From contig CALVIN010000009.1 in the NCBI GenBank assembly GCA_944330115.1, forward strand, positions 1 to 51,615: a stretch of DNA of 51,615 nucleotides. Direction: 5' to 3'. The notes beneath the pieces are model-generated. The model was not told the origin of the DNA. It was given only the letters and a program-made list of their open reading frames with translations, and did not search any database. The stretch is from an uncultured Clostridia bacterium (lineage in GTDB: Bacteria; Bacillota; Clostridia; Christensenellales; Borkfalkiaceae). Positions 1,215 through 43,504 of this stretch are shown here, in pieces. The stretch's first letter is position 1; each line of letters begins with the position of its first letter. Position numbers and translations under genes: made by a program.

Positions 1215-1628
1215 TTATTTTCTATTAGGTTTTCTTTTAATATGCAACAATCTCATAAAATCGCTGAACAAAGCGGCATCGGTCGGCTCAAACATCATCC
1301 ATTTGCCGTCGTGGAATGTCTGCGCTTTGTCGTAAACGGTTTGCGTTTCCTTTGAATAACAATCTCGTTCTTCTTCAAATTTTGTCCTTTCGTCTTTACC
1401 GAAGATGACCATAAACCCGATACAGTTTTCCCGCGCATAGAGCGAGCATAGCGTTTTTCCGCCGCGGCGGTACTTGTATTCATACTTCCATGCTTTGCCG
1501 CCATTATTCCATATATGTTCCATATCATAGCTTTCATCGATCAAAGCAATTAAACTATCCCATATTTCGTATAAAGATTTTCCGACCAGATTTGTCAATT
1601 CTTCCGCGGTTGGTACTGTATCAAGCAT
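1215..1628 (-). CDS. DUF3788 family protein
   Basis: A 137-residue cytosolic protein that I recognise as DUF3788: an N-terminal helix, 'SYDMEHIWNNGGKAWKYEYKYRRGGKTLCSLY', 'GFMVIFGKDERTKFEE', and a C-terminal 'YHDGKWMMFEP'-like segment (here FHDGKWMMFEP). The fold resembles the YdhG/DUF1801 type, but no reaction is established for the family. A strong AAGGAGG site lies 6 nt before the ATG. It is the first gene of a two-gene unit with the WYL regulator. Confidence 0.85.
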   Translation of the reverse strand: MLDTVPTAEELTNLVGKSLYEIWDSLIALIDESYDMEHIWNNGGKAWKYEYKYRRGGKTLCSLYARENCIGFMVIFGKDERTKFEEERDCYSKETQTVYDKAQTFHDGKWMMFEPTDAALFSDFMRLLHIKRKPNRK

Positions 1629-1655
1629 GACGACCTCCTTATGTACTTTTCTTTA

Positions 1656-1691
1656 ATTATACCATATTAAAGATGACAACAGCAAGTCATC
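1656..1691 (-). promoter_or_regulatory. Promoter and operator-like dyad of the DUF3788-WYL unit
   Basis: Minus strand: -10 TATAAT at 1656-1661, an 18-nt spacer, and -35 TTGCTG at 1680-1685. A dyad GATGAC-N8-GTCATC lies at 1672-1691, over the -35 box. It shares ATGACAACAG-N3-GTCATC (plus-strand reading) with the site at 285-304, at identical spacing to the -10. Confidence 0.7.
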
Positions 1692-1694
1692 TTA

Positions 1695-1721
1695 TAAAAA
1701 ACTCCCGACAAAATTGCCGAG
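1695..1721 (-). terminator. Rho-independent terminator after the GNAT gene
   Basis: On the minus strand an imperfect hairpin (CTCGGCAA / TTGTCGGGAG) is followed directly by a T run. It sits about 20 nt beyond the GNAT stop and ends the seven-gene operon that starts at about 5.1 kb. Confidence 0.6.
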
Positions 1722-1741
1722 CGTTTTTCCATTTCTTCATA

Positions 1742-2242
1742 TTACAAACTTACTACTTTACATTCTTTTATTATTTTAAGCATGACAAGCTCCTCGCCGT
1801 TGTCTTTTACAACTTCGAAACCAGCTCTTTCATACAGCTTTACGGCAAAATTTTCTTTTTGGACAGACAGAGAAACCGCAGAAAATCTCTCTTTTTTCAA
1901 AACTTCGATCATCTCTAAAAGCAGACGCGTCCCTATACCATTCCCTCTGCTCTCTTTTGAAACGGCAATGGCAAGTGACGGTACATCGTCATCGATATGG
2001 CCAAAGTCGTTTACAATCCTCGTCCATACTGCACCGACAATTTTGTTATCGGTTTCGGCAATAAGGCAAATATCTCCCGCTCTCGTTCCAAAATCCTGAT
2101 AATAAACTTTTAGTTCGGGAAGTTCAACAATATGCTTTGGCGGCATATTTACACCTGTTGGAACATAAATCGCATGATATGTAAACTCTTTTAGCAAAAA
2201 ATATTCATCTGTCTTCATCCTTCGAATAATAACTTCTTTCAT
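1742..2242 (-). CDS. GNAT family N-acetyltransferase
   Basis: A 166-residue acetyltransferase with the full GNAT core. Motif A is 'LAIAVSKESRGNGIGTRLLLEMIEVLKKE', with the acetyl-CoA loop RGNGIG. Motif B follows as 'AVSLSVQKENFAVKLYERAGFEVV'. The substrate cannot be told; such proteins acetylate small amines or protein N-termini. The start ATG overlaps the TfoX stop (ATGA), so translation is probably coupled. It is the last gene of the seven-gene operon. Confidence 0.92.
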   Translation of the reverse strand: MKEVIIRRMKTDEYFLLKEFTYHAIYVPTGVNMPPKHIVELPELKVYYQDFGTRAGDICLIAETDNKIVGAVWTRIVNDFGHIDDDVPSLAIAVSKESRGNGIGTRLLLEMIEVLKKERFSAVSLSVQKENFAVKLYERAGFEVVKDNGEELVMLKIIKECKVVSL

Positions 2243-2553
2243 TTTCTTTTTTTCGGCTCCGGCAAATCTTCGTAGATAGCGTTGAATAATCCTCTCAAAA
2301 ATGATTTGTCTTCAACTTCGTCAACAAGTAGCATTTCCTTTGCTCCTTCATAAGGCAATTCATACGTCGCTGACGGCATATAAGAAATTGCGGTTTTCAC
2401 GGGTTTTACAAGCAATCTGTCGTCATAGATTCCCCCTACGATTTTTCCCCGATAATAGATAATATACTCACCCATCATCGGACGATATGTGATTTCTTCC
2501 AATTCAGATAGCTGTCCTAAAATATATTGAAGATACGCGTTGCTCGACGCCAT
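2239..2553 (-). CDS. TfoX/Sxy N-terminal domain protein
   Basis: About 104 residues, covering a single TfoX N-terminal domain: 'ITYRPMMGEYIIYYRGKIVGGIYDDRLLVKPV' and 'GAKEMLLVDEVEDKSFLRGLFNAIYEDLPEPKKRK'. I chose the ATG at 2553 (MASSNAYL) because GAGG lies 8 nt upstream; the longer reading lacks a site. In gamma-proteobacteria Sxy acts with CRP in competence, but single-domain Firmicute members have no proven role. The gene at 4098-4622 carries a helix-hairpin-helix segment like the TfoX C-terminal domain, so the two halves appear as separate genes in one operon. Confidence 0.88.
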   Translation of the reverse strand: MASSNAYLQYILGQLSELEEITYRPMMGEYIIYYRGKIVGGIYDDRLLVKPVKTAISYMPSATYELPYEGAKEMLLVDEVEDKSFLRGLFNAIYEDLPEPKKRK

Positions 2554-2581
2554 AATTTTATCCTCTCTTTTGGCTAACAAG

Positions 2582-2821
2582 TCAGTTTTTCATACATTTT
2601 TCAACTTTTCCTATATACAACAGATGCTCGCAAAATATGGTTTTCGCTCCGTGTTTGCGGCAGCCCTCGCAGTTGATGTGTTCGGGCAAAATCGGAGCGT
2701 TGTTCAACCCTGCCCACAACTTTGCCGTTTTCTCGCGCAAGACTAGATCGTCATGGACGGTCGCTATGTATGCATCACATGTTTCGCAGTCCAATCCACT
2801 GTACCCAATCATATCTTTCAT
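2582..2821 (-). CDS. DUF3795 protein, C-terminus replaced (probably truncated)
   Basis: A 79-residue cysteine-rich protein. The N-terminal part (YSGLDCETCDAYIATVHDD, REKTAKLW, INCEGCRKHG) matches DUF3795, a probable zinc-binding family. Intact members usually continue after 'FC' with further Cys pairs. Here the reading turns into HLLYIGKVEKCMKN and stops. The string HLLYIGK also ends the methyltransferase encoded 450 bp upstream, so the tail looks like the end of a deleted methyltransferase gene joined to a cut DUF3795 gene. The ribosome site AAGGA is good. The product may be non-functional. Confidence 0.75.
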   Translation of the reverse strand: MKDMIGYSGLDCETCDAYIATVHDDLVLREKTAKLWAGLNNAPILPEHINCEGCRKHGAKTIFCEHLLYIGKVEKCMKN

Positions 2822-2824
2822 AGT

Positions 2825-3226
2825 CTACATCCTTCCCAATGCCTTTCTTATATCCGCAACAAACTGTGCTTGCTGTTTTCTCAGATATGACTTAACAAAT
2901 GGTTTCATAAACCACTTTTTTGCTTTCACGCACTCTGTAAAATCTATCTCAGTTTCGTCTCCTCTCTCCGTAAACACTCCAATCCAATGCCCTGTCATAT
3001 TGCTGTTTTCCATCTCAAACTCCCATCGTGCGTATGGCTCGACAAGCGTTACCGTAAACTTCGTGGAATAGCCGTCTTTGGTATATTCAATAAACTGTCT
3101 ATTGTTTATCACTTCGGTTTTGCTCAAATCGCTTCTCCAAGCGCCGTAATTTTCCACCCCCAAGACAAGCTCCCACACTTTATTTATCTCGCACGGAAGC
3201 ACCGCTTTTATACTTGTAACCGCCAT
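2825..3226 (-). CDS. SRPBCC (START/Bet v1-like) family protein
   Basis: A 133-residue protein of the polyketide cyclase/START fold: an N-terminal 'AVLPCEINKVWELVLGVENYGAWRSDLSKTEV', the central strands 'TKFTVTLVEPYARWEFEME', 'GHWIGVFTERGDETEIDFTECV', and a C-terminal long helix 'KPFVKSYLRKQQAQFVADIRKAL'. Members bind hydrophobic ligands or act in stress responses; the ligand here is unknown. GAGGTG lies before the ATG. The gene is 3 nt from the DUF3795 start, within the same operon. Confidence 0.88.
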   Translation of the reverse strand: MAVTSIKAVLPCEINKVWELVLGVENYGAWRSDLSKTEVINNRQFIEYTKDGYSTKFTVTLVEPYARWEFEMENSNMTGHWIGVFTERGDETEIDFTECVKAKKWFMKPFVKSYLRKQQAQFVADIRKALGRM

Positions 3227-40521: not shown

Positions 40522-41148
40522 TTACAGTTTAAATCCGCACACAAATTCGCGCAGTTTTTTTATATCTATCCTGCCGTTCAATCTGTCGTATATGGCGGCG
40601 GTGAAGGCTGCCGCCTGCTCCTTTTTTACCGCCACGGTAAAGGAGACCGACGAGGAATACTCGGTGTTCTTCACCTCGCAGTCGCTCAGACCGAAATAGC
40701 GGTTGCATATATCCACGCAGTCGTAGCCGACGGTGAAAAGGTACTCCTCGCACGGCATATACATGAGCTTGGGGGCGCTCTCTAAATTTTCGGCGGCGCA
40801 GCCCGAATAGGCGCGCACCAGCCCGCCAGCGCCCAGCTTTATGCCGCCGAAATAGCGCGTGACCACCACCGCCGTGCAGAACAGCTTTTTGTTTTTTATC
40901 ACCTCGAGTATGGGCATGCCCGCCGTGCCGCCCGGCTCGCCGTCGTCGGAGAAGCGGGGGAAATTGCCCGTTGGATCGGCTATATATGCGTGGCAATTAT
41001 GAGTTGCGTCGGCAAATTTGGCGCGCATGCGCGCTATGAAGGCCTTTGCCTGCTCCTCGCCCTCGGCGTGACATGAAGTTGTGATAAAGCGGGAACGCTC
41101 TATCACCTTTTCGGTGGTATGCTCCCCGCTTACCGACAGATATCCCAT
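40522..41148 (-). CDS. yigZ: YigZ/IMPACT family protein
   Basis: A 208-residue protein. The conserved N-terminal domain includes 'SRFITTSCHAEGEEQAKAFI', 'THNCHAYI', 'RFSDDGEPGGTAGMPILEVI' and 'VVVTRYFGGIKLGAGGLVRAYSG'. A C-terminal ferredoxin-like domain (DUF1949) follows. The family is linked to translation control, but its bacterial role is unsettled. Its ATG overlaps the tyrS stop by one base (TAATG), so the genes are cotranscribed. Confidence 0.95.
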   Translation of the reverse strand: MGYLSVSGEHTTEKVIERSRFITTSCHAEGEEQAKAFIARMRAKFADATHNCHAYIADPTGNFPRFSDDGEPGGTAGMPILEVIKNKKLFCTAVVVTRYFGGIKLGAGGLVRAYSGCAAENLESAPKLMYMPCEEYLFTVGYDCVDICNRYFGLSDCEVKNTEYSSSVSFTVAVKKEQAAAFTAAIYDRLNGRIDIKKLREFVCGFKL

Positions 41149-42332
41149 TATTTTAAAATTACCTTGATGTGCTGTTTTTTGCCCTTGTGAATGATATCGC
41201 CGCTCTTTACGGGGGCATTTATATCGGTGACCTTATTTTCGCCTATCGAAACGCCGCCCTGCTGAATGAGCCTGCGCGCCTCGCCGTTGGAGGAGCACAG
41301 TTTTGCCGCGACGAGCACGGGAATTATCGTGGGCGTTTCCACGGATACCTCCACCTCGGGCAGTTCGCCGCCGCCGCCGAACGCCGCCTTTGCCTGCGCC
41401 ATGGCCCTGTCGGCCTTTTCGCGGCCGTGAACGAGGGAGGTGAGCTCGTATGCGAGGATCTCCTTCTTTTCGTTTATGCGGCTTGCGTCCCACTCCTCCA
41501 TCTTTGCAATCTCATCGAGCGGGATAAAGGTGAGCATCTTTATGCACTTCATAACATCGGCGTCGTCGATGTTGCGCCAGTACTGATAGAACTCGTAGGG
41601 CGAAGTCTTATTTTCGTCGAGCCATACGGCGCCCTTTGCCGTTTTGCCCATCTTTTTGCCCTCGCTGTTGAGTAGCAGGGTTATAGTCATGGCATATGCG
41701 TCTTTGCCGCTCTTCTTTCTTATGAGCTCGGTGCCGGCGAGCATGTTACTCCACTGGTCGTCGCCGCCGAACTGCATGTTGCAGCCGTAGTGCTCATTCA
41801 AATACCAGAAGTCGTAGGCCTGCATTATCATGTAGTTGAACTCTAAAAACGAAAGGCCCTTTTCCATGCGCTGCTTGTAGCACTCGGCACGCAGCATGTT
41901 GTTTACCGTAAAGCATGCGCCCACTTCGCGCAGAAGTTCGACATAGTTGAGCTTTAACAGCCAGTCGGCATTGTTTACCATAACGGCCTTACCGTCGCCG
42001 AATTCGATGAAGCGCTCCATCTGCTTTTTGAAGCACTCGCAGTTGTGGTTTATGACCTCGTCGGTCATCATGGTGCGCATATCGGTGCGGCCGGAGGGGT
42101 CGCCTATGTGGCCTGTGCCGCCGCCCACGAGCACCACGGGCTTGTTGCCCGCCATCTGCAGCCTCTTCATAAGGCAGAGCGCCATAAAGTGGCCTACGTG
42201 AAGGCTGTCGGCCGTGGGGTCGAAACCTATATAAAAGCGTGCGCCACCGCCGTTTATAAGCTCACGTATCTCCTCTTCGTCGGTGACCTGCGCGATAAGG
42301 CCGCGCGCCTTTAATTCTTCGTAAATACCCAT
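41148..42332 (-). CDS. tyrS: Tyrosyl-tRNA synthetase
   Basis: A 394-residue class I synthetase. The HIGH motif is 'HVGH' at residues 45-48 and the KMSKS loop is 'KMGKT' at 227-231. 'GGDDQWSNMLAG' and 'FLEFNYMIMQAYDFWYLN' shape the tyrosine pocket. An S4 RNA-binding domain closes the protein (SSNGEARRLIQQGGVSIGENKV). GAGAGG precedes the ATG. Upstream lie a terminator, a Tyr/Phe-containing leader ORF and a promoter, so synthesis is probably controlled by attenuation. Confidence 0.97.
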   Translation of the reverse strand: MGIYEELKARGLIAQVTDEEEIRELINGGGARFYIGFDPTADSLHVGHFMALCLMKRLQMAGNKPVVLVGGGTGHIGDPSGRTDMRTMMTDEVINHNCECFKKQMERFIEFGDGKAVMVNNADWLLKLNYVELLREVGACFTVNNMLRAECYKQRMEKGLSFLEFNYMIMQAYDFWYLNEHYGCNMQFGGDDQWSNMLAGTELIRKKSGKDAYAMTITLLLNSEGKKMGKTAKGAVWLDENKTSPYEFYQYWRNIDDADVMKCIKMLTFIPLDEIAKMEEWDASRINEKKEILAYELTSLVHGREKADRAMAQAKAAFGGGGELPEVEVSVETPTIIPVLVAAKLCSSNGEARRLIQQGGVSIGENKVTDINAPVKSGDIIHKGKKQHIKVILK

Positions 42333-42394
42333 AAATTTTTCCTCTCAGATAAATTACCCTTTTATTTTAGCACAAAAAAGCATAAAAAAGCAAT

Positions 42395-42424
42395 AAAAAA
42401 GCGGCTTGCACGCAGGCAAACCGC
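42395..42424 (-). terminator. Terminator/attenuator upstream of tyrS
   Basis: Minus strand: GCGGTTTGC pairs with GCAAGCCGC (one G-T pair) over a 6-nt loop, followed by six T residues, A, and more T-rich repeats. It lies between the leader ORF and tyrS, about 60 nt before the tyrS start. Confidence 0.75.
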
Positions 42425-42482
42425 AATAAATAGCAAAATTGCTGTATTATGCGCAAATTTTTACCCACGGCAAAACATCGTA

Positions 42483-42545
42483 TCACCCAAGGCGGCGGTA
42501 CGAGTAGCCGAAGAATATCGCGTTTTCATAAAATCTGCGCTTCAT
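42483..42545 (-). CDS. Putative tyrS leader peptide, 20 residues
   Basis: A 21-codon ORF starts ATG AAG CGC AGA TTT TAT and ends at TGA. It contains Tyr at positions 6, 14 and 16 and Phe at 5, 11 and 12 (segment IFFGYSYRR). The ATG lies 6 nt after the -10 box, so it would be translated from a leaderless transcript. Together with the downstream terminator and tyrS it fits a ribosome-stalling attenuator that senses charged tRNA-Tyr. Translation itself is not proven. Confidence 0.6.
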   Translation of the reverse strand: MKRRFYENAIFFGYSYRRLG

Positions 42546-42551
42546 ATAGTC

Positions 42552-42581
42552 AGTATAGCATGACTGATATATAGCTGTCAA
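42552..42581 (-). promoter_or_regulatory. Promoter of the tyrS leader
   Basis: Minus strand: -35 TTGACA at 42576-42581, an 18-nt spacer and -10 TATACT at 42552-42557. The -10 is flanked by AGTCA and TGACT (an inverted repeat with 8-nt centre), which could be an operator. Confidence 0.75.
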
Positions 42582-42608
42582 GTGTGAGAGTTCCAAATTT
42601 TTTACCTT

Positions 42609-42678
42609 AATGATACCTCCCCTTTGAGGGGAGGTGGGTTGAGCGCAGCGAAACTCGGTGGAGTTTCACCACCCCAAA
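42609..42678. repeat. REP-like palindromic element after sigK
   Basis: CCTCCCCT-TTG-AGGGGAGG (42616-42634) is followed by a second imperfect dyad with GGTGGAGTTTCACC. Such compact double-hairpin units are usually dispersed repeats. No other copy lies in this window. Confidence 0.5.
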
Positions 42679-42694
42679 CAAACTCAATTTATAC

Positions 42695-43399
42695 TCAATC
42701 TGTAAAGAAATCTTCCTTATTCAGTTTTTTGCGCGCCTTTTCTATCGCGCGCTTTTCGATGCGCGAGATGTACGAGCGCGATATGCCCAATTTTTTGGCA
42801 ACCTCGCGCTGGGGCTCGGGGTTGTCGTCGAGCAGGCCGTAACGCATGGAGATTATGGCAAATTCGCGCTCGGTTAGTATTTCGCCGAGCAGCTTTACAA
42901 ACTTTTCGCGCTGGATAGACCGCTCCACCTTTGCAAATACACTGTCTTCCTTTTCAGACAATAGGTCTATGAGCGTAAGCTCGTTGCCGTCTTTATCCAC
43001 TCCCACGGGCTCGGAGAGCGAGAGGTCGTTTTTGTGCTTTTTGCCCGTGCGAATTAACATGAGTATCTCGTTTTCGATACAGCGGGCGGTGTATGTGGCA
43101 AGCTGCGTGCCCTTGCCCTCTTTATATGTATTTATGGCCTTTATAAGGCCTATCGAGCCGACGGAAATGAGGTCGTCGGCCTCGGCCGCGCCGCTGTATT
43201 TTTTGGCTATGTGCGCAACCAGGCGCATATTGTGCTTTATTAGTATATTTTTGGCCTCGTTATCGCCCGCGCGGGCGGCCATAAGATACTTCTTCTCCTC
43301 CTCGGGCGAGAGCGGTTTGGGAAAGGATCCCTTGCCCTGCACAAGCCCCGTAAACAGAAATACTTTGCCGAAAATAAGGCTGAGAAAATCAAAAAACAT
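42695..43399 (-). CDS. sigK: RNA polymerase sporulation sigma factor SigK, with pro-sequence
   Basis: A 234-residue sigma-70 family factor. The N-terminus MFFDFLSLIFGKVFLFTG is the hydrophobic pro-sequence that holds pro-sigma-K at the membrane until SpoIVFB cuts it. Region 2 follows (NMRLVAHIAKKYSGAAEADDLISVGSIGLIKAINTYK), then region 4 with helix-turn-helix (REVAKKLGISRSYISRIEKRAIEKARKKL). It directs late mother-cell transcription (coat, cortex). GGAGGGG lies before the ATG at 43399. The gene is whole, with no skin-type insertion. Confidence 0.95.
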   Translation of the reverse strand: MFFDFLSLIFGKVFLFTGLVQGKGSFPKPLSPEEEKKYLMAARAGDNEAKNILIKHNMRLVAHIAKKYSGAAEADDLISVGSIGLIKAINTYKEGKGTQLATYTARCIENEILMLIRTGKKHKNDLSLSEPVGVDKDGNELTLIDLLSEKEDSVFAKVERSIQREKFVKLLGEILTEREFAIISMRYGLLDDNPEPQREVAKKLGISRSYISRIEKRAIEKARKKLNKEDFFTD

Positions 43400-43504
43400 A
43401 AGCCCCTCCGTGCAGCACCGCCACACGCAAATAGCTTATGTTTTTAACAGTTTGTACTATTCTATTTTGCCCGCCTATCGGCTTGTACTATTTTTTACCC
43501 GGCG

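Follow-up and report, generated by a model that had tools for sequence, protein, structure and literature searches.

What lies in front of tyrS at this locus? The window—the whole 51,615-nt stretch of DNA that was analyzed—carries on its minus strand, as read from its sequence, a promoter (P1), a 20-codon open reading frame (ORF), a terminator, and tyrS, in that order, with sigK as the upstream gene (Table 1). P1 matches the consensus at 11 of 12 positions, and a GC-rich terminator hairpin begins 58 nt beyond the ORF. Tyrosine is encoded by codons 6, 14, and 16 of the ORF and phenylalanine by codons 5, 11, and 12. The original prediction had described a TTGACA-18-TATACT promoter, a 20-codon ORF, a hairpin with a T run, and then tyrS, and all of these elements are confirmed in the window sequence, as is an ATG 6 nt from the −10 box. 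Its count of three Tyr and three Phe codons also stands, but it had placed all of the Tyr codons in a final cluster, where only two of them lie; the third is codon 6. Between sigK and P1, positions 42610–42680 contain inverted repeats of high GC content, GGGGTGGTGAAACTCCACC and, read on the plus strand, CCTCCCCTTTGAGGGGAGG; the repeat at 42615–42635 is present as a single copy in the window. No such repeats were seen at the same place in two other genomes, G029 and G015. The P1 spacer (42561–42580) contains an imperfect palindrome, TGACTGATATATA/TATATAGCTGTCA, that is not obvious in G029 and is possibly a product of chance.

Table 1. Features of the tyrS leader region in the window, followed by the loci of three leaders found before DAHP synthase genes elsewhere in the order
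Feature	Position	Strand	Details
sigK, upstream gene (sporulation sigma factor SigK)	42695..43426	-	sigK motif 5' of tyrS in 53/58 genus loci
Promoter P1	42552..42581	-	TTGACA (42581-42576), 18 nt, TATACT (42557-42552); TG before -10
Leader ORF MKRRFYENAIFFGYSYRRLG*	42483..42545	-	20 codons; ATG 6 nt 3' of -10; predicted leaderless
Additional Tyr codon 6 of leader ORF	42530-42528	-	
Tyr codons 14 and 16 (TAC TCG TAC)	42498..42506	-	likely stall site
Outer helix of protector hairpin (segment 1:2)	42465..42513	-	arms 42513-42509 / 42469-42465; alignment columns 42-46 with 88-92
Inner hairpin over Tyr codon 16 and stop codon	42479..42502	-	arms 42502-42494 / 42487-42479
Candidate antiterminator (segment 2:3)	42412..42468	-	GTGGGTAAAA 42468-42459 with TTTGCCTGC 42420-42412
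Intrinsic terminator (segment 3:4) and T6	42395..42424	-	hairpin 42424..42401; covarying in alignments
Candidate second promoter P2, weak	42364..42393	-	TTGCTT-18-TAAAAT; TGC before -10; 3' of terminator; read by eye
Likely ribosome-binding site of tyrS, GAGAGG	42346-42341	-	
tyrS, tyrosine--tRNA ligase	41148..42332	-	TIGR00234
DAHP synthase leader locus L212 (G659)	1501-3124		
DAHP synthase leader locus L353 (G342)			
DAHP synthase leader locus L355 (G437)	1501-2849		

How widely is this arrangement conserved within the genus? We found tyrS in 59 of 61 genomes and took upstream DNA from 59 loci of 58 genomes; G057 had no upstream DNA and G018 no 5' end of tyrS, and 58 loci were usable. Eighteen of them, selected with no condition on Tyr, have TTGACA, a −10 box, an ATG 6–7 nt farther on, and an ORF of 18–30 codons, and every one of these 18 ORFs holds two to six Tyr codons. 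A nineteenth leader (L074, in G031) has an ORF of the same kind on a contig that begins at the ATG, and the remaining 39 of the 58 loci have no leader. The peptides fall into five groups: IFFGYSY in clade A, FAHLYYR in clade B, CGYSYYR(Y/F)W in clade C, NGLSYGYSYCYYRN and relatives in clade D, and NGYVYAYAY in clade E. The comparison with relatives proposed in the original prediction came out in its favor—those that have the ORF keep both the frame and the Tyr codons—with the single exception of G091 (L190), in which one nucleotide is apparently missing and a broken frame leaves the Tyr codons out of frame, through either assembly error or decay. The terminator is kept, and promoter and ORF are missing, in G072 and in G014 and G002, whose tyrS genes are 95 and 94% identical to that of the window.

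The genus contains two types of tyrS, the full-length ones being 82–100% versus 62–67% identical to the window tyrS. Both types, about 65% identical to each other, occur behind sigK at the sigK–tyrS site (L009–L074), and G031 has both, with a leader only at the second. sigK precedes tyrS at 45 of 48 type-1 and 8 of 10 type-2 loci; the corresponding numbers for the leader are 13 of 48 and 6 of 10. At the sigK site, tyrS may have been exchanged beneath a resident leader.

Do such leaders occur outside the genus? In 8 of the 18 genera of the family (g1, g2, g3, g5, g9, g11, g12, and g17), tyrS can have a leader, and the leader sequences differ widely, with peptides as divergent as MKRSLAVAIYGYWYYVCS, MKILAVIYYYNYYTYYSFRNNNIIG, and MKNYFAYVTTAYYAAYYSCDD. 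A covariance model (R1) built from 19 leaders scored above 60 bits in 24 of 93 genus genomes, 19 being the model's own sequences; among 301 family genomes, it matched 55 with an E value of at most 0.01. Inspection covered 52 of these 55 matches, all but those of G003, G075, and G162: 39 proved to be tyrS leaders, of which 17 belong to the genus, counting the frame-broken G091, and 22 to other genera, and 13 are not leaders. Because R1 bit scores overlap, with terminator-only regions reaching 41.6 and leaders going down to 31.8, the score does not separate leaders from terminators, and each region was therefore read by eye. Of 18 fetched family regions with weak R1 matches, 8 proved to be leaders and 10 terminators only. 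Among the loci inspected, those of G052, G034, G011, G005, G072, G014, G002, G512, G774, G750, and G1064 have no leader. Antisense matches on the terminator palindrome, together with L190, L193, and L195, were excluded before alignment A3. A survey of tyrS upstream regions in 151 family genomes, 143 of them with tyrS, yielded 12 further leaders among 109 fetched non-genus upstreams (one only 99 nt long). Including the 11 found before, a leader is present in 23 of 120 non-genus tyrS upstreams (120 of 124 were examined).

Beyond the family, a second model (R2) matched 10 of 396 genomes of the order at E 0.001 or better, four of them outside the family. In G659 and G342, which belong to one genus, and in G437, from another family, Tyr-rich promoter-placed ORFs (MKKNIIANAFYYFYFYGFNKS, MKNLNRNAFEYFYFYGFMKS, and MKRNFVLNAYYYGYGYYYDGRCFDMR) and a terminator precede a gene for DAHP synthase, assigned by NCBIfam in G659 and G437 and from sequence in G342. 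The fourth match, G512, was rejected as a leader on inspection. The start of a prephenate dehydrogenase gene lies 3' of the DAHP synthase gene in G659 (NCBIfam, under curated cut-offs; the locus ends there), and a prephenate-dehydrogenase-like gene follows it in G342. Within the family to which G659 belongs, matches are confined to 2 of 43 genomes. Across the class, 5 of 391 genomes match, and the three from outside the order were read as terminators. The gene behind the inspected leaders is tyrS in the family and DAHP synthase in the three order relatives.

Which amino acid would these leaders sense? At least two Tyr residues are present in 57 of 57 intact leaders—a set that leaves out G091 for its broken frame, adds G031, and includes 12 leaders selected under a condition of at least two Tyr—and Tyr is the only residue with that property. 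YY or YxY is present in 55 of the 57, and Tyr accounts for 71 of 422 codons in the first 19 leaders, as opposed to 21 expected from composition. Phe is absent from 11 of the 57 intact peptides; a Tyr/Phe sensor is thereby ruled out, and of the initial description as a Tyr/Phe leader peptide only the tyrosine part survives. Besides Tyr, the 57 peptides have little in common. In nine leader pairs, with clade B leaders trimmed to their first 39 nt, substitutions at codon positions 1, 2, and 3 number 23, 27, and 46 (P = 0.002 against one third). The same pairs differ by 40 nonsynonymous and 28 synonymous codon changes, so the leader peptide as such would be free to change.

Could Tyr-rich ORFs be placed behind promoters by chance? 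A strict detector, calling for a promoter, an ATG 5–9 nt after the −10 box, an ORF of 12–40 codons, at least two Tyr, and YY or YxY, picked out 28 of 171 tyrS upstreams, compared with 0 on the reverse strands and a mean of 0.01 in dinucleotide shuffles (100 rounds). Matches in G125 and G146 look like chance and were removed before counting. Without the Tyr condition, a promoter-placed ORF of 12–40 codons was found in 31 of the 171 upstreams and once on the reverse strand, and 30 of these 31 ORFs contain at least two Tyr.

How would the leader RNA fold? For alignment A1, comprising 19 leaders, RNAalifold yields three elements, namely the terminator, an outer helix, and an inner hairpin that spans the stop codon. 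Together these helices are paired in 92.6% of cells, versus 38–46% when slid, and eight pairs are changed on both sides; in the shuffle control, the values were reached in 0 of 500 rounds for four of five measures and in 12 of 500 for the fifth. Four of the five outer-helix pairs in the window are standard. The candidate antiterminator is paired in 87.6% of A1 cells, versus 32–48% when slid, and its shuffle control is modest: of 500 rounds, 14, 47, 7, 78, and 6 reached the values of the five measures, where 14 refers to pairing, 47 to pairs changed on both sides, and 6 to covariation. In a model-fitted alignment of 43 leaders, a kind of alignment that favors structure, both partners change in 21 of 25 pairs; the inner hairpin there is paired in 94% of cells, with both-side changes at 9 of 9 pairs. 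One terminator-like hairpin was found in the window leader, and since shuffles give 0.7, the window hairpin by itself is no proof of a terminator. Computed energies in the window are −10.5 kcal/mol for duplex 1:2, −12.6 for duplex 2:3, and −15.2 for hairpin 3:4.

Equilibrium folds were also computed for the 19 leaders on transcripts ending ahead of segment 4, either with a ribosome placed over the Tyr codons or with none. With the stalled ribosome, segments 2 and 3 pair by 7–13 bases in 13 leaders, that of the window included, by one base in one, and not at all in five; with no ribosome they pair by at least 7 bases in 10, by one base in one, and not at all in eight. Folding had been put forward as a check on the original prediction. 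The alternative pairings are conserved in the alignment; in the folds, the expected shift, with 2:3 absent when free and present when stalled, appears in 6 of 19 leaders (G000, which is the window, G032, G035, G001, G030, and G049). The reverse is seen in G015, G046, and G031. A ribosome at the stop codon blocks 2:3 in the 6 leaders of clades D and E but allows it in the 13 of clades A–C, the window leader forming it with 12 pairs. When full leaders are folded with a stalled ribosome, the terminator is retained, as in the window, except in L019 and L022 among the leaders listed; full-leader folding of L014 gave no terminator. Our model assumes a kinetic switch between the folds. A blind partner search scored 46 of the 57 leaders, of which 27 reach at most 5 of 100 shuffles and 12 reach none; the partner found for the window lies inside the ORF and is equalled by 25 of 100 shuffles. 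For 10 of the 12 leaders scored in genus g9, the antiterminator duplex scores above the terminator.

Comparison shows the promoter/ATG layout, the frame, the Tyr codons, the helices, and the gene linkage, and in our judgment it is probable that the window leader attenuates transcription of tyrS through a ribosome that responds specifically to tyrosine, on a leaderless RNA. The reading of the tyrS leader as a ribosome-mediated attenuator is supported, and from the comparison we infer its transcription start, leaderless initiation, stalling, and read-through. RNA from P1 would begin at or a few nucleotides from the AUG of the Tyr-rich leader peptide. With charged tRNA-Tyr plentiful, the ribosome would read through the ORF and leave; segment 1, in the ORF, would then pair with segment 2, and segment 3, left free, would form the 3:4 terminator and end transcription before tyrS. 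With charged tRNA-Tyr scarce, the ribosome would stall at the Tyr codons, cover segment 1, and open the inner hairpin; segments 2 and 3 could then pair while segment 4 has yet to be transcribed, and the polymerase would continue into tyrS. In clades A–C, the window's included, the ribosome would have to leave because one at the stop codon does not block 2:3. Because leaders of clades D and E have their stop codon in or at segment 2, a terminating ribosome would mask that segment as well.

Is a leaderless start plausible in this organism? The −35 box is TTGACA in 56 of 57 leaders, window included, and the distance from the −10 box to the ATG across the 57 leaders of 8 genera is 6 nt in 41, 7 nt in 4, and 9 nt in 12. 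The RNA should therefore start at or within ∼3 nt of the AUG, and translation of the leader peptide probably starts on a leaderless RNA end. Two promoter patterns were searched in the window's own genome, giving 13 and 12 matches, some common to both. The pattern TTGAC-N17..20-TATAAT-N5..8-ATG accounts for the 13 (its reversed control gave 0), and ORFs of at least 170 aa open at 6 of these 13 ATGs, which suggests that leaderless starts are used in the window organism. Seven loci of this genome (L156, L158, L161, L164, L165, L167, and L216) have long ORFs whose ATG lies 5–8 nt behind a strong −10 box, and these are probable leaderless mRNAs. At L162 (G000:C4:183271), a strong promoter is followed by a 45-codon ORF that extends into an element resembling, by reading, an FMN riboswitch. 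Reading the own-genome matches gave no clear case of another amino-acid leader of the same design.

Does tyrS expression depend on P1? P2-like sites are present at 17 of the 57 leader loci: 14 in g1 (two of them in clade B), two in g5, and one in g12. The P2 site of the window is also found in G091, with similar ones in further g1 members of clades A, D, and E. The automatic scan took the wrong T run as the terminator in at least five rows (G000, G015, G032, G092, and G058), so that the distances and P2 calls of those rows were not used and P2 of the window comes from reading by eye. P2 probably adds unregulated tyrS transcription in the window's clade and could supply tyrS in the window. One might then imagine that P1 yields an independent small mRNA or sRNA that invariably stops at the terminator and whose Tyr-rich peptide or RNA has its target elsewhere, with tyrS transcribed from P2, an arrangement we consider unlikely. 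The P2-like sites at 17 leader loci, 14 of them in g1, would fit it, as would the relatives with no leader at the locus, which by reading appear to have a P2-type promoter alone; trans-acting leader products are also known, as described for peTrpL of S. meliloti (PMC7298713). However, 40 of the 57 leader loci have no P2-like site; the terminator there mostly lies 22–99 nt before tyrS, and read-through from P1 should therefore feed the gene. An RNA or peptide acting elsewhere also sits poorly with peptides that are alike in little but Tyr, with the position of every inspected leader before tyrS or DAHP synthase, and with the conserved alternative pairing.

Might the RNA be read by something other than a ribosome? 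TyrRS or another factor could bind the large hairpin and choose between terminator and antiterminator, the ORF being incidental; E. coli ThrRS, which acts at thrS, is the model for a protein-binding leader of this kind. The conserved, covarying outer and inner hairpins are what such binding would predict, and within clade B the inner hairpin is kept while the frame through it varies. Yet it is the Tyr codons and the placement of the AUG that are conserved, and not the peptide sequence, and two tyrS types as different as those of this genus stand behind such leaders at the sigK site; we hold a protein- or ligand-binding leader to be very improbable.

At amino-acid genes in this phylum, T-boxes (RF00230) respond to uncharged tRNA, and they too work with a terminator. 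They sense the tRNA directly, not via the ribosome. Neither a T-box nor any other Rfam family was found in the window leader at gathering scores. The 12 Rfam matches in 42300–42720 at E up to 10 include no T-box, and all are far below gathering scores; 20 tyrS loci of the genus likewise gave no T-box at gathering scores. These covariance searches rule out a T-box identity of the window leader and agree with the original prediction, which had seen none. The window's own 1.77-Mb genome has seven T-box matches elsewhere, three of them above the cut-off; from their N-termini we take six of the seven genes behind them to be aspS, leuA, a trpB-like gene, pheS, thrS, and ileS. In a search of 20 upstreams from 12 genera, a T-box lies directly 5' of tyrS in 3 of 7 upstreams of genus g8, and among loci L082–L104 it lies directly before tyrS in 4 of 20, with a fifth 1.1 kb upstream. 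T-boxes in g8 and leaders elsewhere mean that both controls exist at tyrS within one family. A degenerate T-box, to which the T-boxes of g8 and of some more distant loci might point, retains next to no probability: the 20 genus loci give no match at gathering scores, and the leader of the window gives none even when E values up to 10 are admitted.

On a wider scale, we tentatively picture an order-wide tyrosine attenuator regulon, which we regard as possible, if short of probable: leaderless Tyr-rich leaders would govern tyrS in one family and, in other families, aroF(-tyrA), the T-box would have been displaced at these genes, and in the window genus the leader would have been kept behind sigK while tyrS was swapped for the other type.

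How does the proposed attenuator compare with known systems? The expectation that leader-peptide attenuation is typical of proteobacteria proved too narrow—the literature describes or predicts it also in Actinobacteria and some Firmicutes (PMC2965389, PMC5794164, PMC8079986; further background in PMC1262725 and PMC9413887)—but the accompanying expectation of a T-box at tyrS holds for some relatives. In S. lividans, leader peptides are reported before leuS, trpS, alaS, and thrS, and the leuS, leuA, trpS, and thrS leaders are described as leaderless (PMC8079986). The window resembles these in that a synthetase gene follows a short ORF with many codons for its own amino acid; the S. lividans cases, however, come from Actinomycetota, concern other amino acids, and in several instances are described without a clear terminator (PMC8079986), whereas the window system concerns tyrosine, belongs to Clostridia, and has a terminator and covarying hairpins. 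A leaderless leader peptide ahead of a synthetase gene therefore has precedent in Streptomyces, whereas a tyrosine version of it apparently has none.

Other parallels lie in Firmicutes and beyond. In the histidine leaders described before hisS*/hisZ in bacilli (PMC2965389), an attenuator likewise replaces a T-box at a synthetase-related gene of Firmicutes, with histidine where the window system would sense tyrosine. The Leu-rich attenuator peptide of S. aureus ilv (PMC5794164) also belongs to a Firmicute in which a T-box might be expected, but it concerns leucine and a biosynthetic operon, and genetic support is described for it. Ribosome-mediated attenuation has been predicted for a synthetase gene at cysS of Rhodobacterales (uORFC-8-2) and for the first gene of the aromatic pathway at aroF of Acholeplasma (uORFC-13-1); these involve Cys and, with a ribosome-binding site, Phe, in lineages other than that of the window (PMC8632094). 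In S. meliloti trpL, the attenuator RNA is described as starting with the ATG of the leader peptide, much as predicted for the window; that system is for tryptophan, in Alphaproteobacteria, and is reported as experimentally tested, with a peptide that also acts in trans (PMC7298713). Our literature search, which covered open-licence papers, found no leader-peptide attenuator for tyrosine or tyrS. The mechanism would be that of the known trp-type attenuator; as far as we searched, its use for tyrosine, at tyrS, and in this lineage is apparently new, as is the link to aroF.

If this reading is true, it would add a tyrosine sensor to the leader-peptide attenuators, and T-box and leader peptide would be alternatives at one gene within one family. 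It would also provide a leaderless attenuator from the Clostridia, suited to testing the need for fast ribosome loading.
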